A stretch of DNA of 64,000 nucleotides from Fomitopsis serialis. Its lineage: Eukaryota > Basidiomycota > Agaricomycetes > Polyporales > Fomitopsidaceae. Position numbers and translations under genes: made by a program. The notes under the pieces were generated by a model that was given only the letters and a program-made list of their open reading frames with translations, searched no databases and was not told where the DNA came from. The stretch covers positions 62,001-126,000 of the forward strand of contig NW_025954966.1 in NCBI RefSeq assembly GCF_022376445.1, given 5' to 3'. Below, in pieces: positions 8,349 through 58,709 of the stretch (within the stretch, counting starts at the first letter, position 1; each line of letters starts with the position of its first letter).

Positions 8349-8720
8349 GGTGTCCTTGGCGTTCTGGCTACTGCAGGGTACTGCTCGTTATTGCCCGCCG
8401 TTCTGGGCTGTCGCGGGGATGGTGCATGATGGTTCGGGACGATCGTGAACCTTACAATTATGTGATGCGGAGCGCTCTACTCTCGTCACGGGTACCGGTG
8501 ACTTACTGAGATGATTGAGCTTCCTGCCAGATGCAGCATACATGTGCTACTCACTGTAAGTAATCAGTAGAGGCGTCAGTGACCCAGTAACAGTCCAAGG
8601 TGGCCGAGATCATGTCCCGATATAGTAGTATTTGTCCGTGCTTGTCGCTGACTGTGGCTACGCGTTACAACATGGTGTGTGGCTGGACTTTGTACTTTGT
8701 ACTTTGAGTCTTTGACAATC
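8349..8720. promoter_or_regulatory. Shared divergent promoter region of hydrolase and FunK1 kinase, copy 1
   Basis: 372 bp separate the two start codons of divergently transcribed genes, so both promoters must lie here or overlap the genes. No specific factor site was recognised. In copy 2 the equivalent interval is expanded to about 2.5 kb by repeat DNA. Confidence 0.5.
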
Positions 8721-11700
8721 ATGTCCACCTCCACGAATGCGACAGAAACGTTTACGCGCTCAAGGGTGCCAATGCTGCCGCCAGCAACTCCCAGGAATAC
8801 TCTACCGAAACCCTTCTTCTCGACGCCATCCAACAACAAGGCGTCTGCGAGCTTCGCTTCGTCTCAAGGCGCAAGCACTACGGGGTTGAGGTAGGCGCAA
8901 GTCGCGCAGCACATATGCCCGGACTGACTTGGTGAATGCCGCACTCCAGGTTGCAAGACGTGGCCCCCGGCATCGAACGTGACCTCGAAAAGCACCAGCA
9001 GTGCACCCTGAAGAGCATGCAGACGTTCTTACTCAAATCAATCTTGCCTGGCGAGCAGGACCTCGACGGAAAGCTTGCAAGATGTATGGAGGAGGCCAAG
9101 GAGATTTGTACGAGTCCCGAAATGCTCGAACGGTTGGAAGACCTGTGAGTAACGAGTAGAAGTCGTATGTATACACGTGATCTAATACATATCACAGCAA
9201 AAATAAGCTGAGCTTTGGCGATTGTGAAAGCGCAATGTACATACCGTACATCGCGCTGACGAACGAGATCCTTGCGCAATGCCGCACAGGGCTGCGGGAG
9301 TTAGGCCAACCGTCGGACCTGGACATCATATGTCTCTGCAACGATCCGAACGTAATAATCGGCAACCATGATGAACAGAACACGTATCGCAAGCCAGACC
9401 TAGTGTACATCAACTGGCGAGGCATTTTGCGGCATGGCAACCGAGCTTCAAGCTGGGAAGCCGCGCGGCAATGGGTCGAGGCCTCGTTCAGCGACTCCAC
9501 CAACCGCGTCTCACTTCAGTTGGACTGGAGCCAAGTACTCATGATGGACGAGCTGAAGAAGACCAGTTTCGACGAGAAACAGATGAAGGACATTCGACTG
9601 TATAGTCCGTCGGAGGGCAAGGTCGTCCCCTACGCGAATCCGGCCAAATTCGTCGCTGGCATGATGCTCGAGGTTCCAGCGCTGGTCTCATTGCACACCG
9701 TCTCGTCTGCTCATGGTATCGTGTGTTTTGAACTTATGGTTTTTACGAATCTGACCGTCCTTGCTCTGCAGACGCGAAGGTATCGACCGGTTCGAAGCGC
9801 AAACAAACTTCGCAGACAGCTAGTGCGAGTAGTTCGAAACGGCGGAAGACGAGTGCCACGGACAACCGAGGAGGGGGGCTGACAGAAGTCGACAACGCTG
9901 GCAAGAAGAAAGCGAAAGCGAAAGGCAAAGGGAAAGCGAAGACGAAACCGACAGCGAAAGATCCGAACCGCCCGCCCCCGATGGTGCAGATGGCCATCTA
10001 TGCCTCCGAAATGCTTTCTGTAGAGGGGCTGATCAGGGATCATGGACTGGGCATGCTGACCCAAGGTTTGTGTTCGTATGCTGCTGTCTTGTTCGGGCTG
10101 ACCACAACGCATACAGACGGTTGGACGTGGTTATGGTATTTCGACAGCGCGGGGGCGATCCAAGCGCAGGGCTTCAACATACTCGCACACACCGCAGACT
10201 TCGTGTTCATCTTGATGTTGCTCCAGCGCTTCAATCTCCCGCAGTGGGGGTTCCCGCAGGGGACGAATTCTGAGGCGAAACTCGACGTGGTTCGGGGTCT
10301 GCCCGAATCGCGAGATGAGACCCCGGGACCGGCTGGTCACACAAGATTGATGCCCGCTGCACCGGGAGCCAAGACTTTCGAAGTCGTTGGAACGGACAGG
10401 AAGGGCGTGCCCAAGACCATGGTGGTGAATCCAACGCGCGTCCTCTACAAGCCCTCGCCTGTCCTGAAAGGGCGTCGAACAATGGTGCTTGAAGCGCAGG
10501 ACCCGGACATGCCTACAACGTCTTATGTTGCGAAATGGTCCTACCCCCAGACGACACGTCACAATGAGGCCGAGACGATATGGATAGCTCGCGAAATCGT
10601 CGAGGAGGTAGACAAATCTGCGCTGGGAGCGATGACAGACGTGATTGCATTCAAGGACTTCTCGCATCTATCTACAAACACCATCCGAGGCCATCTCCGT
10701 CTAGTCAGTGACCCCACACAGTCGCTCATCGACGCTGAGCACTACGGGGAGCGCATCCTGCGGTGCATCTTCGAGGTGGAGTTCAAGCCATTGACGTATC
10801 TGTCCGACCTTGAGTTCGTGCGGGGCATAATCAATTGCATTCACTGTAAGTGTCTCTGCGTGATCTCTTCACGCGATGTGCTCAACGTCTTGATAGGCCA
10901 TATGATTCTTTGGATCGGTAACGGCAAGTACAGAGTCGAACACACCGACGTCAGCTTTTGGAACTTGGGCGTTTGCCCGTTTTCGCTATGCATCAGGCTG
11001 CGCGACTTCGACCTTGCTCGTGTGGTGGTAGCCGGCCAGCCAAGCAAACCTCAAGGTTCGGAGAGGACGGGCACCGTTCCCTTCATGGCGCTTGACCTCT
11101 TGACGGAGGCCTATTGGAATGGTCAACGCGAGCGACTCTATCGCCACGATCTAGAGGCATTCGTGTGGGTCGCGATGTACTTCGCTTGGGCTTTCGACGA
11201 CGAGGGACTTGAAGACCTGACCTCCCCGGTCCAAGTCTGGCTGACGGGCGACTACGACCAATGCAGACTAGCGAAAGGCGACTTCCTCAGGACCCGGGCG
11301 GGAGAGCTCCCAGATTGGATGACGAGCGAAGACACCCCGCTGGGATACGCCCTGTCCTTTGCCAGGATGATTTCTCAGTGGCTAGTGGGAGAGGAGGCAC
11401 AGCGCCGGAAGGCTGCAAACCCAAAGGTCGACGTTCTAGATCGATTCGCCAAGAAGAACCACCTTTCCCGAAGTCGTGGCGATGAACTTGAGGAAGCAAA
11501 GCATGACTTCGAACTCTTCTGGGCTGAAATCGAGGCCATTCACAGCGCAGTCAAGGATGTGGAGCCAACGCCCGAGCGGGTTAACTATTACATGGAGCGA
11601 GAGAAGAAGATCACGGCGATGAATACACAGCGCGAGGCGGAGGAGGCCAAATTGGACAGAGAAGCGAACGCGGAGGAAAGGGAACGGAAGAAGGCTAAGA

Positions 11701-11777
11701 GGGAGGCGGAGCAGGAGGCACGCAAGGAGCGCGACCGGAATATGCAGCTGAGGCGCAAGGTAATTTCTGCATTGTAA
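8721..11777 (+). CDS. FunK1-type fungal protein kinase, intact copy
   Basis: Six exons, 8721-8890, 8950-9144, 9198-9715, 9772-10065, 10117-10845 and 10897-11777, join without a frame break to give 928 residues. The N-terminal third has no domain I can name. It is followed by a Lys-rich linker (near nt 9890-9960). The kinase part has Y-V-A-K-W (putative ATP-site Lys, about residue 530), the catalytic loop H-T-D-V-S-F-W-N-L (about 651) and R-D-F-D-L-A (about 671). H-T-D-x-S-x-x-N and DFD are the FunK1 signatures of basidiomycetes. The last 70 residues are a highly charged helix (ERERKKAKREAEQEARK). Biological roles of FunK1 kinases are largely unknown. The ATG at 8721 was chosen because the paralogue at 15610 aligns from the same point. 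Confidence 0.88.
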
Positions 11778-12186
11778 CCATTGATCTGTACTCTCCATTA
11801 CTATCATACGACCGGACTTGGATACATACCTATGGACAGTTTCCTGCATTGAAGGTGCTACGTATACTATCTGTCGCTCGTCTCGTTCTCCACGGGCAGG
11901 CCCCCAACCACTAGTACTTGCGACAAGCACAGGCGGTTATATACATATGTACGAAATTACTCGGTTCTGATGGGTATCCAGACTCGGACAGACTCACATG
12001 CGATGTGTCCACCGAGGTGAGTGAGATCCCAGCCCACGCAAGGCTTCCCGGGTGCTTTCACTGTACTTGGCGTTGGTCATGTCAAATTCCATCCTCGATC
12101 AATACGTTGTCGGGTGAAATTACATGGTAGGAGGTACTGTGTCTACTATTCGTACATACAAATGCGTTACTTCGTTCAAGACTTCA
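11778..12186. other. Spacer between duplication copies
   Basis: Contains the 3' flank of the copy-1 kinase (similar to 24735-24945) up to about 11970, then the start of copy 2 at about 12030. The gaps between the two homologies are short, consistent with a head-to-tail tandem duplication. Confidence 0.5.
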
Positions 12187-14232: not shown

Positions 14233-14846
14233 CAGCTAATTTCAGAACGATAGTCACTCTCGAACGCGCGCGACATATGATGACTAAGCGCTCCGTGCTT
14301 CGGGAGCGGCGCACACCGTTCTTCTGCACCACTGCAACCTGTGCGAGATCTTCCACACACAGCGACCTGTCCAGGACCAGCCCCTCGCAACGACATACAC
14401 GACACGATCCCGTGAGCAATCAGGTTGATGCGAACCAATAATTATGCAGAATGTGTCTGGTCAGCCTTGCTCTACAACACCACTGACATTCCAGTGAATC
14501 CCATGCCTTGCCAGTCGCGAGCCATGTAGAAAGTGTTCACAGCTAATTTCAGAACGATAGTCACTCTCGAACGCGCGCGACATATGATGACTAAGCGCTC
14601 CGTGCTTCGGGAGCGGCGCACACCGTTCTTCTGCACCACTGCAACCTGTGCGAGATCTTCCACACACAGCGACCTGTCCAGGACCAGCCCCTCGCAACGA
14701 CATACACGACACGATCCCGTGAGCAATCAGGTTGATGCGAACCAATAATTATGCAGAATGTGTCTGGTCAGCCTTGCTCTACAACACCACTGACATTCCA
14801 GTGAATCCCATGCCTTGCCAGTCGCGAGCCATGTAGAAAGAGTTCA
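14233..14846. repeat. 307-bp tandem direct repeat, two nearly identical copies
   Basis: Unit 1 is 14233-14539 and unit 2 is 14540-14846, each starting cagctaatttcag. I see one difference, near the end (gtgttca versus gagttca). The near identity implies a very recent tandem duplication. Confidence 0.9.
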
Positions 14847-14987
14847 ACTATTCGGACTCTGCGAGAGTCATGGTAGCTCTACACTACTACTGTAAATGGT
14901 AGAGAGACAGGTCCATAATTCAGATTTCAGATCATATATCATCTGTTGTGTCTGCTCGCGCAAAATTGACAGGAGACGATGAACGAC

Positions 14988-15092
14988 AGTGGTGCAGAAG
15001 AGCGGTGCGCGCCGCCTTCTTGAAGGTTGGAGCGCTTAGTCATCGTCTGTCGCGCGCGTTTGCAAGTGACTATCGTTCTGAAATTAGCTGTG
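14988..15092 (-). repeat. Inverted, diverged copy of the first ~105 bp of the 307-bp unit
   Basis: The minus strand from 15092 reads cacagctaatttcagaacg and follows the start of the 307-bp unit for about 105 bp with scattered mismatches. It is therefore an older inverted copy, facing the tandem pair. Confidence 0.8.
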
Positions 15093-15154
15093 ATCTTTAC
15101 CGCATGGTGAGTTGAGGAGAACTTATCCGTGGATGCGGTGGTCCACCGTCCGTC

Positions 15155-15480
15155 ATCATCATGGTCTATATGAGAGAGTTTTGGCAGCAACTGTGGAAGT
15201 TCACGCCACCACCAGGCCACAGCTCCGACACCGCCGATCTCTGTGAGATCTGCGGCGGGCGTGACACGGGTGTTACCGGCCCGCCTGGAGAGTGGTCACC
15301 CTCCCAAGCGTCAACCGTGCGCGAATCGCCATGAATAGTAAGAGTGTCACGGTCAGTCACTCGGCGTCACACTCTCGACCAGCCCCACGGAGCCCCACCA
15401 CCACCAGACCTCAGCTCCATCTCCACCGCTCAATTCAACTTCAACAGTTGTTTCCAAAACTCTCTATGATGATAGTCCAA
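15155..15480. repeat. Imperfect inverted repeat flanking ~230 bp
   Basis: The plus strand near 15155-15200 (gagagttttggcagcaactg) matches the minus strand near 15480-15435 (gagagttttggaaacaactg) with several mismatches. It could be a small non-autonomous element or a decayed palindrome. Edges are approximate. Confidence 0.5.
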
Positions 15481-16521: not shown

Positions 16522-16531
16522 TCAATGGCAT
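16522..16531. repeat. Target-site duplication, left copy
   Basis: Sequence tcaatggcat, repeated exactly at 22658-22667 on the other side of the element. If the terminal base t belongs to the element (TAGTCT terminus), the duplication is 9 bp. Confidence 0.85.
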
Positions 16532-16560
16532 AGTCTGTGACTCAATAGCGTGGTGGAACC

Positions 16561-16571
16561 GGACTAGAGCC
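16561..16571 (+). repeat. Subterminal inverted repeat, left
   Basis: GGACTAGAGCC, found in inverse orientation at 22576-22586. A palindrome-like CTAG core is included. Candidate transposase binding site. Confidence 0.7.
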
Positions 16572-16633
16572 GCTTCGGTATCTTCCGAGCACGTGAAGTT
16601 TACCGCCCGTGTAAACACGTCAATAACAGTAAA

Positions 16634-16668
16634 CAACGCGTCCCTGAGTTGCGCGCAACGCGTCCCTG
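16634..16668 (+). repeat. 13-bp direct repeat pair near the element's left end
   Basis: caacgcgtccctg occurs at 16634-16646 and 16656-16668, just upstream of the helicase start at 16699. It may be a subterminal protein-binding site or a promoter element. Confidence 0.6.
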
Positions 16669-16698
16669 CCAGCGGGTTGAGCGACAACCACTGGCACT

Positions 16699-19068
16699 AT
16701 GGCAGCTGGGCCCTCCAGGTACATGTTCAGTACTGCGGAGGGGCACGTGTTGACGCGCAGCATCCTTCGCAAGCACATTCCCTATGATCCGCATGATTAC
16801 CAACTCGAAGGGGTTTGTCAAGTCCTCGACGGAGTTGACCTCTTGGCTGCACTCGCTACTGGTTCTGGCAAGACGGGCTTCTACTCCATGTATATGCTAA
16901 TGCTTACAGAATTGTCAAATAATCAGTCTCTTTGCAACCCTCCTTATCACAGTGTTCCGAAGGACCCTGCTATGGTCGGCATATATCCAACTATTGGGTT
17001 GGAGGAGCAGATGGTAAGCGTAGATTTGCGTGTTCCACTGTCACATACTAACTATTATGTGTACTCAAGGCCGAAGAATTTACTAAGATTGGTTTATCAT
17101 CTCTGGTCATCAACTCCCGAACACTCGAGGCGGCGCGGGCATCGAGTACCAACCTCTGGGTACGTGCTCGCGCAGGAGTGACCATGCTACTCCTATCCCC
17201 AGAGCAGCTCGCCTCAAAAGGGTTCGAGTCCCTGTTACAGAATCCCACATTTCGGAACAGGGTTTGTGCAGTAGGACTCGACGAAGCCCATGCCCTGGAC
17301 ACCTGGGGAGCCAGCTTCCGGAAGAGCTACCGCCAGATCGGCTTCATCCGCGCGCGCATGCCGGACCGAGTTCGTATCATTGCGGCGTCGGCGACCATTC
17401 GCGTTGATGGGCCGAAGGAGAATATCTGCAAGCTCCTTGGATTTCGTGCTGGCGAATACTACGAACTTCGTCGATCAAATGTGCGGCGGAACGTTCGCCC
17501 AATCTTCCGTGTCCTACAGTCCGGCCTTGGCGGATGGGCATTCCCCGACTTGGATTGGATCATTCCTGACGGACGCAAGACCGTCATATTCTGTCGCACG
17601 ATTGCACTCGGGTATCGTGTCTTGGTCTACCTGTGGAGCAAGATACCAAATGGTGCAGATTGCACGCGTTTCTTACGCCTGTACAACGCACTCAATTGGA
17701 CGACGTACAACACAGAGACCCGTGAACTTATGCGTTGCGACGAGTCGTGCAAAATTATCATCGCAACTGCAACCTTCATGATGGGCGTCGATGTGCCCAA
17801 CATATTCCGAGTACTTCTGCTTGGCGATCCCGAAAGCACGGAGGAGTGGCTGCAGTGGCTGGGTAGGGCACAGAGAGACGTGAAATTGACGGATGATGGC
17901 GAATGTATTACGTACATCACAAAGGGTGCTATCTCCAATGCGCGTGGGATCATCGACGGAACTCTGTCACACGGCGCGAGTCGAAAGAAGACGAAATCAT
18001 CATCTGACAAGAACGCGGTGATGGACAAGGCAATGGCGAGGGTCCTCCTTGCTCCCTGCAAGATCGCTGAGCAGGACATGCTCTACGCCAATCCGCCATC
18101 TGACCCTCCATGTCTCTGCGAGACGTGCACAGCGCGCTCTGCTCGCCAACCTCTCCGGTCAGAGACCCCTTGGCCATGCAACTGCAGTGGCCCCGGAGAG
18201 CTTGGTTGTCAACCCGAGGCCATTGTCGCCCCCGTCGCTCGCAAAAGCAAGACAGACAATCCAGTCCCAAAGGCTAAACGACTCACCAAGGCGATGCGAG
18301 CAGTCGGCATGGACCGGTTCATCCACTTCCGTAACAAGATCTATCTCGCCGACACCTCTGCAGCAGCGGACCTCTTCCCTCCGGAGGTCTTCTTTCCAGA
18401 GCCTACGATGAAGGCTATCCTTGACCGCTTCGCACTCATTGCAACACCGGGCGAGCTGCAGGACCTGATTGCCAAACGAACGTATCTTCTTCCACATTCC
18501 GAAGGCCTGTGGTCTGTCATTGTCGAGCTCCAGATAGCATTCGTGACGATGCGTGGCAAACCAAGTGCTTCGAAGTCGAAGGAGACTGAAAGCGACATAC
18601 CTGGCTCGGATGTCGGTGGAAACGGTGCCACAGTGGCGAATGAGGCGACCGCAGAGGAAGATCACGGCGATGGGTTTGAGAATGCGAGTATGATGCTAGA
18701 GTGGGATTTGGGTGTTCGGCAGTGAGTCACACACATTCGGCGTGTCTGCACACTGATATAACTGTCGATACCTTAGGGACGCAATGCTATGCCCTGAAGC
18801 GAGTTCAACACTTGAGTGGAAACTCGGGACGGACGCAGACTGCGACGCAGTCCAGCAGAGTCCCTCGGCCCCTGATTCCACAAGTCATCTACAGGCACCA
18901 CCGGTCTCCGATCGACCAGTGCAGCCATCTGGACCACTCTCATCGCGTAAGCGTGCAGGGACAGCATCTGCGAGTGTGCCGCAGAACCGGCCGCAAACAA
19001 GATCGCGCACGGCCATAGTACGTCTAATCATGTTTGTAGGACCATTCAGAATTACTAAGGGACTTTAG
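16699..19068 (+). CDS. RecQ-like DEAH helicase carried by the mobile element
   Basis: Three exons, 16699-17013, 17070-18721 and 18777-19068, give 752 residues with consistent phases. Superfamily-2 motifs are A-T-G-S-G-K-T (residues 53-59), D-E-A-H (176-179), S-A-T (about 212) and L-G-R-A-Q-R-D, the last corresponding to Q-x-x-G-R-x-G/Q-R-D of RecQ. After the helicase core there is a Cys-rich stretch with C-L-C-E-T-C and C-N-C near nt 18110-18210, probably metal binding. The C-terminal exon is low complexity. Ending at the TGA after exon 2 (18723) is possible, but gtgagt is a strong donor there and exon 3 continues in frame. RecQ-like genes are abundant in mushrooms; here the gene sits wholly inside an element with matching ends, so a role in element replication or repair is inferred. 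Confidence 0.85.
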
Positions 19069-19115
19069 GAGATCGGGAAGGAGAACAGCTCTACGCATAC
19101 ATAGAGACACACCTG

Positions 19116-22100
19116 TCATACATTGTCAATCTCGTCCAAATAGCCGTCATTGGCCGTCTCCGATTCTTCAACTTCGCTGACCGCGAGACCGTCTTCATCC
19201 AGCTCGCCTTCCCCGTGGTCTATGATATGTCGCACATCGGTATCCTCCAACTCTATCACGAGCTCGCCGTCGACTAATTGCATGTTCCCACGTCTATTTT
19301 GTGCGTGTGGGAGTTCGGTACCATCCGAGTCTGCATCATCCTCGTCAACTGTGTCTTGTACATCTTCGTCGATCTGTGTCTGTAGCTCTGCGATGGCCGC
19401 AGGCGTAGCGTTCCGTAGGTTGCGGCCACGAGTGGACTCGACTATCCACTTTTCGAGCTTGCCTGTTTGTAGACTGACAACACCAGTTTTGTAGGTGTCA
19501 ATGGTTTGTGATGAAGTCGTGTATGACCGGCCAGCCATGAATTGGTGGAGATGGGTCTCCTTGTACACTCGCAGTAGAGTCGACACTTCCGGTTTGCTGT
19601 GCGGCTCTGGATGGTAACCCTTGCGTTTTGCCAAGCCTATCGACTGACCCCAACCATTTTTGAGGTCCACGAAATAGTGAACGTTCCGCGCGATTACATC
19701 ACGGATAAGCTTGCCATCCCACTCGCTCCCACTTCGTTGGACGGCGTCTTCCAGGGCGAGATTCAAGTGCTCTTGCATTAGATCACCCTCCTGATGTCGT
19801 CCGCTTTCCCCGGAGGGGTTGACAAGCCAGTTCCGAAGGAATAAGGTTCGTAGTTCTTCATCCGACTCAAAGTCTAAAGACACTACCATCTCGAGGATAT
19901 AGCTGGTGTATTTCGTATGTCCCGACCCAGCGAAGTTGAATAGCATCATCTAATATCTGCAGTAAGTACCATTAACTTTCCGGTGCGAGCATGGCATCTA
20001 TCCTCACCTTTATACCTTCATAGACACTCCCGACATCACCCATTGCGACCGCCTGGGCAACAGAACGCGAGAGGGCCGTATCAATCATGAAGAGCATGGA
20101 TTGCGCAAGTGATCGATCACCTGCGAATGAGGTACCTTCGGTACTAGTACCGCCAGGAGTTTGCCAGGGCTCGGGTGCTGATGGGATGCCTAGCGTCTCG
20201 GTGACTTGATCACCAGCAAGCGCTATATGGTACGCCTTCCGTGACATGTACCGCGCATACAGAGTCTCCGCAACTTTGTGTAACTCCTCCAGAGTTGGTA
20301 ATGCATCTCGGGCTGCCAGCGCCTTGAAGTACGCGAAGATATCCTCGGTCTGGAAGTGGATTCTACTTGTTGGTGAGCAACAAGTATATCATGAGTCACC
20401 GGCACATAACCAACATACCGGAAGCAATCTAGCATGCGTACGTCGAGGACCAAGTATGCGAGATAGACTGCTGAATAGTAGTCAACCTTCTTGAGGTTCG
20501 TCGGCTCCTTCTGATCAATTTTGTTGGCGCTGTGGCCGAGCTTTGACGGGTCGTTGGTAAGGCTATCACCCCAATGTGTCTCGAACATGAGGCTGACATA
20601 CGTCCACTCCGTATGCCAGGTTTCAAGAAACGGAACCACGTTCTCGAAGCGCTTGAAAGCGCTATCCTGGAACTGCATGTACTGCTTCAGCTTGAGCAGC
20701 CGCTCGAAAGTGAGCCCATCTCCGCCCACGAAGATGAGCCGATTGGGATCGTAGTCGTCCTCGCTTTGTCCGATCTGGCCCAAGAAGTCAATCATGGCGT
20801 CGCGAAGCTCGGTAATGACATTCTCGTTCTTCGAAGATGTGCCGAGTGGATGAATGACAGTCTTCTGATCAGGGACACGAAACTTCGAAGCTTGCGTGCG
20901 GTAGATCTCGGCCACCTTGGACTTGTACGTCGCCAGTTCGGGGACGTAGTTGACCAACGTCTGGAGCCACTGCAAGACGAAGACCTGTCGCAGATGATGT
21001 TGATCTACCACCTCGAGTAGCGACTCCACAGTGAGTGTAGCACGCATATTACTCTCGAGTGACAGCTTCTTCTTTCTGGCGTCAGCGACAGCGAGATCGA
21101 AGTCAAACATCTCCGCCACGGTCCCCGCGACACCAATCTTCATGACGTTCTCATGTCCGATTCGGTGCTCGCGCACCTTTACATGCTGTTGCACGTTGTC
21201 AAAACGCATTGCGAGGCCAGTACGTTTGTCTTTTCCAGCCTTTATGAGGTGTTCCGCGCGCTGTGCTGACATGCGTGCCAATGTTGCATAGGTCGCATTG
21301 TAACTCTGCGAGAAAGCAATGCGACTCCCGTAGTTGAATATCCCTCGTGATGCCCCATTGGCAAAGAACATGATGGACCGGGCGGACGGGTGTAAGCGCG
21401 CGAATTTCGTGTGCGAGAAATTCACCATACTGATGATTTCGAGCGCGACCTGATTGAATGACAGAGGTCAGTTTGCCGATGAGAATTCGAGATCGATCTG
21501 GCTTACAAGCTGCGGTGGTCTTGTCTTCCTCACGACAATTACACCATCACGTTTGTGAGGCTCCGGTGAGGCAAGCATCGTCAGGAGTCGGAGTGTAAGT
21601 GGTTGGTGCATCTGCGCGACAGATTTGACAGATTTGATGGTTTCTAGACCGATGTCATCCCATGCCAGCTCCTTATGGCCGCGCTTCCCAGCCTGACTAC
21701 CATGCAGACCACTAGAGCCCTTCACCGCACTCCGCATCTCCTTCAAGAGCTTCTGATGGCATAATTGTACCACCATAGATGTTATCGCTGCCCGAGCTGA
21801 CGGGATCTCGGTGAACGGCTTGTCAAGTGAATACATGAGGTCGTCCGGCGAGTTCGGGTCTGGTCGACCTGCATGGTCATGAAGCCAGCTGTCGATGATA
21901 CTGATTGGCTTGTATTTCGACTGTCCGCTGAGGAAGCGGCGAACCATGAGTCCATGTGACTGGGTTCGATGGATAGGCTGCTGATTTTCGTCCCTCACCC
22001 GGAACAGGTGATGCAGAAACTGGGAGAGTGTCCAGTCGATCTCCTTGAGGACAGCGAGCATATGCTCAAGCTTGTCCTCGTCGGAACGCCTTGTTTGCAT

Positions 22101-22364
22101 TTTGTCAGATGCCCGCCGAGATTCGTACTGACTTGGATGGCCTGAACTCGAGCCCATGGACTCTGGTGGTACCGAGCTGATTGGGGTGCTCTGCGGCATC
22201 AAGATGGCACCCGGATGACTGAGCATATGATGTGTGGGGTAGATGATGGTGCCCGGTGGTGGCCCGTGCATAGGGACCAAGCCGTAGGTCGAGTATGGCC
22301 AATATGGAGGGCCAGGACCTGGATATTGCTGACTGCCATCTGTGGGTTGTCCAGAGGGGTTCAT
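19116..22364 (-). CDS. DUF6589-type protein, candidate transposase of the element
   Basis: Four minus-strand exons, 22364-21507, 21449-20419, 20362-20008 and 19949-19116, give 1025 residues with no frame break. The first 80 residues are Pro/Gly/Tyr-rich. The central part carries R-F-D-N-V-Q (about 368-373), G-G-D-G-L-T-F (about 528-534) and W-H-T-E-W with F-E-T-H-W-G soon after. Exon 4 opens with N-F-A-G-S-G-H-T-K-Y and has Q-E-H-L-N (Glu about 808). This pattern is what I know as DUF6589 of Agaricomycetes. The D...D...E arrangement resembles an RNase H-fold transposase, but that assignment is inference. The C-terminal 70 residues are very acidic. The gene is convergent with the helicase, with 47 bp between stops. 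Confidence 0.8.
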
Positions 22365-22575
22365 GGCACGTCGTTGCGACAGTGTCAGCAGTATAGCATG
22401 GGGTCAACCTCTATACATTGGTTTTGTTATCTATGACCCATCGTAGCTGTACAATGTGTTCGTGAATGTCTCTCGTACTACCATCTGAAGCACACATCTC
22501 TCTCAGCCACTCAGCCACACGGCAGGTGATGCTCCGCACACTCCGATTGGCCCGGACATTCGGAGTTTGGTGAAA

Positions 22576-22586
22576 GGCTCTAGTCC
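22576..22586 (-). repeat. Subterminal inverted repeat, right
   Basis: Reverse complement of GGACTAGAGCC at 16561-16571; 71 bp from the right end of the element. Confidence 0.7.
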
Positions 22587-22612
22587 TACTAGAGGGGCGC
22601 GTACGGGAGCAG

Positions 22613-22642
22613 ACCATAAAAGCGCTTGCGTTCTTTTATGGT
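22613..22642. repeat. 10-bp hairpin near the element's right end
   Basis: Perfect stem ACCATAAAAG / CTTTTATGGT with a 10-nt loop, 15 bp inside the right end. I found no equivalent stem at the left end, so the ends are asymmetric. Confidence 0.7.
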
Positions 22643-22657
22643 ATGCAACGGAGACTA

Positions 22658-22667
22658 TCAATGGCAT
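22658..22667. repeat. Target-site duplication, right copy
   Basis: tcaatggcat, identical to 16522-16531, after which the kinase exon continues. Confidence 0.85.
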
Positions 22668-57788: not shown

Positions 57789-58709
57789 GGTCGACGTGAA
57801 TGAGAATGCTTGCCAGTGTGTGGCTCAGCCGCAGCGCTCAGGCATCCGGGCGCTTACATACTGTACCGATTGCTTAGGCGCTTGTTCGGATTCCCAACCC
57901 GATCCTAAACGTCCCCAGTTGCTTGGGAGTACAGCCAGTATTTATTGGCAAGCTTATGGGGACATACACAGCAATTTACGATGACGAAAACAACTTCATG
58001 GCATACGAGAGGGATAACAAGAGCACGAAGAGCCGAAGACATGGCGAGGCAATGGATACAATCATCAATGGAGGTGGGTATCCGTTGTAGCCTTTGCGAT
58101 CACATACTATGTACTCACTCAAATATCAAACAGAGCGTGCTTGTCGAGTGCCAGTACTTGTTGAATCGTCACTTGAAACGTTGCCGTTGACCGGTGACCA
58201 CCACGGCCTCCTTAAGACCTCCGAGCCAGGCCTGGTCGAAAGCACAGAACGACATCAGTGATTACCATACGGTGGTGCGACAGATACACAATGATGCGCC
58301 GTCGTCGAGGGCAGGACATGGCGTCTCATAAGACGCTTGTCGGCTTTTACATATGGTCTGCAACGGAGACTAGGCCTCTCATTTCCCATATGAGAAGTCA
58401 CGCTGATCCCAGTTTGTGCACTCACTGGCTCTTTGCAGACATTATTATAGCAACCGTGGACGTCGTCGATGATAATGAGGATCTACCTACTTTCCACGAG
58501 ACCCCAGTGCTCCGTCGAGGAAGTTGGTAGGCCTACAACTTAAGCTCACTGTGACTCCACAGACACGGCGTTCATGCACATGCTTCATGCTTCATAAAAG
58601 TCGCTTTTGACAGCAGCCTACAATCTCAACAGCTGCTGTTCGCTCGTACGACGTATATATTTCACGCTGTGCACCTCAAGCTCGCCAGCTCCCCCTATTT
58701 TGCACTCTG
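57789..58709. other. Intergenic with a relic end of the mobile element
   Basis: About 920 bp between divergent genes. It holds a 21-bp match to the right end of the 6.1-kb element (listed separately). Short frames show no motif. Confidence 0.45.
58352..58372 (+). repeat. Relic or relative of the mobile element's right terminus
   Basis: Matches 20 of 21 bases of 22637-22657, the last 21 bp of the 6.1-kb element, ending in the same AGACTA... terminus. The upstream hairpin is not preserved. No coding part is present here. Confidence 0.6.

Follow-up and report, generated by a model that had tools for sequence, protein, structure and literature searches.

AcademH transposons, reportedly defined by Kojima in 2020 within the Academ superfamily, are the described elements closest to the one reported here, a 6,127-bp transposon in DNA of the basidiomycete Fomitopsis serialis. 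It lies in a stretch of 64,000 nucleotides (contig NW_025954966.1, positions 62,001 to 126,000; called the window here) and carries a gene for a RecQ-like helicase and a gene of DUF6589, a Pfam family without an assigned function, whose product is very likely the transposase. The excerpted descriptions of AcademH report an encoded helicase and 9- or 10-bp target site duplications (TSDs; PMC10045372), and a low copy number in Basidiomycota and other fungi (PMC10799480). The F. serialis element and its relatives resemble these descriptions in all three respects: a RecQ-like helicase is encoded, the TSD measures 9 bp in the families that we call A, B and D and 10 bp in family C, and the host is a basidiomycete. 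Because the helicase, the TSD length and the fungal range are as described for AcademH, we file the element in that group, to which it belongs with good probability. The pairing of helicase and DUF6589 is therefore probably not new, and an earlier note on this DNA, whose author was aware of no formal description of it, was probably wrong on this point.

Helitrons also encode a helicase. They share a subterminal hairpin with the element here but, according to the excerpted source, make no target duplication (PMC4289320), and they were rejected because of the 9–10-bp TSD. KolobokH is described as a DDD/E transposon that is found only in fungi and has a RecQ helicase, and in Kolobok-1_CCri, a red-alga relative, the helicase is on the complementary strand (excerpts of PMC9587614). 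In the same excerpts, the Kolobok TSD is TTAA-specific and 4 bp long, and in KolobokH the transposase domain is followed downstream by the helicase, whereas the TSDs here are 9–10 bp without TTAA and a separate gene on the opposite strand encodes the helicase. KolobokH was rejected on the missing TTAA duplication. The CPA element of Tolypocladium inflatum is a repeated fungal element with a product that resembles a RecQ helicase; this product is its likeness to our element, and the excerpted text mentions neither a DUF6589 partner nor a TSD (PMC3688495).

The transposon of the window

The transposon, a member of family A, occupies positions 16531–22657 and has the palindromic ends TAGTCT...AGACTA. 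Repeat analysis of the window showed an exact direct repeat, TCAATGGCAT, at 16522–16531 and 22658–22667. As the ends are palindromic, the repeat is best read as a 9-bp TSD, TCAATGGCA (16522–16530 and 22658–22666), rather than a 10-bp one. A paralogue of the host region that lacks the insertion has a single 9-base copy, TCGCTGGCA, at the equivalent site, and the two host copies are 79.5% identical over 3,456 columns spanning the join. The exact flanking repeat seen in the earlier note thus stands, and its length of 10 bp and the element size of 6126 bp are revised to 9 bp, with one T shared, and 6,127 bp. The inverted ends, the inverted 11-bp subterminal repeat, the boundaries given by the uninterrupted paralogue and the two intact convergent genes of that note were all recovered. 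The features are as follows.

8592..11978, plus strand: host-region paralogue without the insertion (empty site); TSD-equivalent site at 9653–9661
16522..16530: left TSD copy, TCAATGGCA; the next T is common to the TSD and the element end
16531..22657: complete family-A transposon of 6,127 bp, TAGTCT...AGACTA; delimited by its ends, the TSD, a second copy that ends alike and the empty paralogue
16561..16571, plus strand: subterminal inverted repeat, left arm, GGACTAGAGCC; exact 11-bp pair
16699..17013, plus strand: helicase exon 1 (ATGSGKT); Pfam and splice model
17070..18725, plus strand: helicase exon 2 (DEAH, SAT, QWLGRAQRD, then a cysteine-rich stretch); Pfam and splice model
19116..19949, minus strand: DUF6589 exon 4, with predicted catalytic E808 (QEHLN); Pfam and splice model
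20008..20362, minus strand: DUF6589 exon 3; profile match and splice model
20419..21449, minus strand: DUF6589 exon 2, with predicted catalytic D370 (RFDN) and D530 (VGGDG); Pfam and splice model
21507..22364, minus strand: DUF6589 exon 1; splice model
22576..22586, minus strand: subterminal inverted repeat, right arm, GGCTCTAGTCC; exact 11-bp pair
22613..22642, plus strand: right-end hairpin, ACCATAAAAG...CTTTTATGGT; repeat analysis and folding test; absent from the earlier note
22658..22666: right TSD copy, TCAATGGCA; exact repeat and empty paralogue

The helicase gene on the plus strand and the DUF6589 gene on the minus strand converge. In the predicted gene models, both of which are open after splicing, the helicase has 656 amino acids and one intron, and the DUF6589 protein has 1,025 amino acids and three introns. 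The splice sites were predicted from sequence and chosen among 24 open solutions for the DUF6589 gene and 232 for the helicase gene. Pfam DUF6589 matches two minus-strand frames (2.5e-64 and 2.2e-36), and DEAD and Helicase_C match plus-strand frames. The helicase sequence contains the named helicase motifs ATGSGKT, DEAH, SAT and GRAQRD, and its nearest solved structures are BLM and RecQ (E 1e-14). We call it RecQ-like because its score against TIGR00614 (7.1e-25) is under the curated cut-off of the RecQ family. In the database, the DUF6589 protein of the window (P0121 here) is annotated as a 759-amino-acid partial protein.

Families, gene linkage and the predicted fold of DUF6589

We searched the 66.2-Mb assembly of the same genome for further copies. 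A second family-A copy is present at C501:219357–229032; its ends are those of the window copy, and its 9-bp TSD, TCTAGGGGA, is exact. It exceeds the window copy in length by approximately 3.5 kb and is 71–87% identical to it in four aligned pieces; its DUF6589 gene is split by unmatched DNA (C501:222914–226512), which is likely a nested insertion. Three further families with TAG...CTA ends carry both genes, as does family A, and the TSDs are exact in all four. Family B consists of two 5,545-bp copies (99.8% identical) with 136-bp inverted repeats, family C of two copies that are 99.95% identical over 5,843 columns, and family D of two copies of 7,154–7,155 bp with the ends TAGGTT...AACCTA. 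The family-C TSD is 10 bp if the element starts with TAGTCT, and this length is real since the tenth base varies among the family-C scars described below. By inspection, hairpins lie near both ends in families B, C and D. A folding test gave z values of −6.1 (left) and −3.1 (right) for family C and −3.4 for family B. In the two family-A copies, the right ends gave −2.4 and −4.9, and the left ends, at −1.05 and −1.54, have no significant hairpin.

A pattern for the family-D ends had 60 matches, and its control had 27. Nine exact single ends lie away from DUF6589 loci (C54, C111, C112, C124, C216, C231, C305, C401 and C797). The two full copies (L055 684–8801 and L056 741–8855) have different TSDs and approximately 944 bp of one flank in common, starting approximately 20 bp past the element end; their opposite flanks do not align.

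Linkage of the two genes was counted in this genome alone. Merging 91 PF20231 matches gave 45 DUF6589 loci. At least 45 RecQ-like loci were obtained from TIGR00614 and family-B helicase matches, with the window helicase added by hand; the count is a lower bound, as the TIGR00614 search scored 29 of 131 candidates. A helicase match lies within 10 kb at 31 of the 45 DUF6589 loci, compared to 0.6 expected by density, a value that is somewhat too low because of the lower bound. The distance is 1–2.8 kb in 29 of these 31 pairs, and 22 pairs are convergent, nine divergent and none on the same strand. Several of the 14 DUF6589 loci without a helicase match are near contig ends, and the 14 helicase loci without a DUF6589 partner may include host RecQ genes. 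Viral and bacterial or archaeal contigs scanned with A1 yielded no relatives among 18 and 27 pattern matches, respectively.

Two side observations concern these loci. The divergent pairs (C64, C632 and C34, for example) may represent another arrangement of the genes in the same elements. Several DUF6589 frames (C156, C34, C64 and others) are interrupted within the match by single stop codons, which may reflect introns or decay.

Two confident models of DUF6589 proteins (P0001 and P0121) resemble the DDE transposases Hermes, P element, RAG1 and Transib in structure comparison. Both predicted models show an RNase H-like core layout, with an aspartate in the first strand, an aspartate just after a later strand and a glutamate in a late helix. 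In P0001, these are D321 (strand 316–328), D484 (after strand 479–483) and E732 (helix 727–740); in P0121, they are D237 (strand 232–243), D397 (after strand 392–396) and E676 (helix 671–689). The three residues are nearly invariant among DUF6589 proteins, and D370, D530 and E808 are the predicted catalytic triad in the numbering of the window protein. The best VIA Z scores (11.9 and 10.9) are with Hermes, a hAT transposase with an RNase H core and a helical insertion. The P element takes Foldseek ranks 1 and 2 for P0001 and 10 and 11 for P0121, with Hermes, RAG, Transib and others ranking alongside it. Unlike the element here, hAT transposons have 8-bp TSDs, short footprints and no helicase. 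The P element likewise has an 8-bp TSD and no helicase, and leaves shorter end pieces behind than are seen here. When profile A2 was compared with PDB sequences, only ribosomal-protein matches were returned (E 0.22 or worse).

The second copy, the further families, the gene linkage and the DDE-like fold with its D-D-E residues together make the DUF6589 protein very likely the transposase of the element. The earlier note had proposed that at least part of both gene expansions may be one family of DNA transposons, with DUF6589 as the DDE-type transposase and the helicase aiding transposition, and had asked whether RecQ-like and DUF6589 genes co-occur more often than expected. Its interpretation is supported, as none of the three outcomes that it named as refuting was observed: further copies and families exist, the two genes are linked in this genome, and the predicted DUF6589 structures have an RNase H-like core. 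A helper role of the helicase is hypothetical. Most helicase–DUF6589 loci in this genome would then be transposons, which explains why the two genes sit together and gives a likely function to DUF6589. Gene counts and reported RecQ expansions may need to be read again.

Short inserts and a possible excision mechanism

For family A, the pattern of the right end matched 176 places, and its reversed control matched none. The left end without mismatch occurs only at the two full-length copies; if up to three mismatches are allowed, it has 16 matches and the control 12, although this pattern may miss other subfamilies whose left ends are too divergent. We read the best 59 of the 176 right-end places; they represent 55 distinct sites, including those of the two full-length copies. 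At 32 of the 55 sites, a 9-bp TSD (at most one mismatch; 20 exact) encloses an insert of 32–47 bp, compared to 0.65 expected from shuffled duplications. These inserts consist solely of the right end of the element, without the TAGTCT left end and with variable left borders, and most start within the inner arm or the loop of the right-end hairpin. Eleven measure 44 bp and start at the foot of the inner arm, one is longer, and eight measure 37 bp and start near the border of arm and loop. A probable scar of this kind, absent from the earlier note, lies in the window itself.

58329..58372, plus strand: probable scar from excision of a family-A relative, 44 bp, between GGCGTCTCA and GGCCTCTCA (one mismatch); pattern and 9-bp TSD; site with TSDs 58320–58381

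The left ends of family C match 79 places and none in the control. A partner right end follows at 46–63 bp in 36 of them and at 5.84 kb in two; for the other 41, there was no right end among the best 100 of 196 right-end places (63 in the control). These inserts keep both termini, and both ends of the family carry hairpins. Among the 31 family-C places read (12 + 19), both ends were found by pattern at 26; seven of these duplicate a site already counted, so the number of sites is 19. Fifteen of the 19 have a 10-bp TSD (at most one mismatch), and the 19 sites fall into 15 junction classes, four of them seen at two sites each. At 16 clean sites, 28–43 nt of the left end and 14–30 nt of the right end are retained, with the breaks mostly inside the hairpins. 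Family B gave one insert, of 103 bp, with an exact 9-bp TSD.

The family-A inserts were at first taken for one-ended insertions or tiny miniature inverted-repeat transposable elements (MITEs), an idea dropped after family C. Truncation as in the 3′ ends of retrotransposons was rejected as well, since the family-C inserts keep both ends. As the family-C junctions differ while the TSDs are intact, we read the inserts as the residue of excision and end joining; they are likely excision scars. As far as the literature was searched, the many TSD-flanked inserts of 32–63 bp made of the outermost element ends and broken inside subterminal hairpins are new. Such scars would record past excisions and are easily mistaken for MITEs or ignored.

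The P-element transposase makes its cuts in the two strands at a distance of 17 nt, and parts of the ends stay behind; comparison suggests a similar staggered cut deep inside the end for the elements here. The explanation that we favor, with some reserve, is that of a cut-and-paste transposon of the AcademH lineage in which the DUF6589 transposase makes a staggered cut that the element's own RecQ-like helicase helps to open. The transferred strand would be cleaved at the TAG/CTA terminus and the other strand roughly 14–47 nt inside the element, within the terminal hairpin. This assignment follows from the fact that cutting both strands in the hairpins would lose the element ends. A stagger of up to approximately 44–47 nt would not separate easily; a RecQ-type helicase would open it. 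The element would leave with complete 3′ ends, the overhanging tails of the donor would be trimmed and joined so that both TSDs and parts of one hairpin or of both are retained, and integration at a target with a 9- or 10-bp stagger would create the new TSD. What the helicase and the hairpins do in this scheme and the reading of the inserts as scars are inferred. The absence of any left-end residue in family A weighs against a simple version of the scheme. With the scars, the question of why some transposons carry a helicase becomes testable, as the helicase might open a long staggered cut. It is conceivable, though we put it forward only tentatively, that a whole group of transposons of the mushroom class makes its excision cuts within the terminal hairpins of the elements, with a stagger exceeding that of all other DDE transposons and opened by a self-carried helicase, that the RecQ-like and DUF6589 expansions in Agaricomycetes are such elements, and that these genomes are littered with hairpin scars of 30–60 bp.

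Alternative explanations and the surrounding sequence

The short inserts could also come from abortive gap repair, in which excision is flush, the hairpins halt synthesis from the sister copy and end joining follows. The breaks inside hairpins and the varying scar lengths fit this explanation, and gap repair is known to leave parts of the ends of P and Mutator elements in place. The products of such repair usually cover a wide range of lengths, however, and the lengths here are narrow (46–63 bp for the 36 family-C inserts and 32–47 bp for the 32 family-A inserts). Bases of the left end are also missing from the family-A scars, although that end has no significant hairpin. We consider gap repair rather unlikely.

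A second alternative concerns classification. The element could represent a separate, undescribed superfamily defined by DUF6589 and a separate RecQ gene. DUF6589 was not found by name in the literature searched, helicase and transposase are on separate genes, and the DUF6589 protein has only two cysteines (the helicase has seven at residues 435–485), compared to the Cys8 motif or zinc finger of Academ. The match of helicase, TSD length and host range to the excerpted AcademH descriptions makes this unlikely, and AcademH is retained.

That the inserts are MITEs mobilized by the transposase is more doubtful still. It would account for the exact 9–10-bp TSDs, for the 44-bp border common to 11 family-A inserts and the single 44-bp sequence common to two of them with exact TSDs (and to a third with a weaker TSD), for the family-C inserts that keep both termini, and for the four junction classes that recur at a second site. 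It is at odds with 15 junction classes at 19 family-C sites and with family-A inserts, in which the TAGTCT left end is missing and the left border varies. Finally, although DUF6589 proteins are annotated in the database as hypothetical or uncharacterized, the reading of both genes as ordinary host neighbors is refuted by the exact TSDs and the empty paralogue, by copies 99.7–99.95% identical at different sites and by the transposase-like predicted fold.

Next to the host stretch that the transposon interrupts, a frame encodes a domain of the fungal protein kinase type (PF17667). Local repeats at 14233–15465, on the upstream side of the host gene, comprise a 307-bp direct repeat (99.7%) and inverted stretches of approximately 107 bp (87%).
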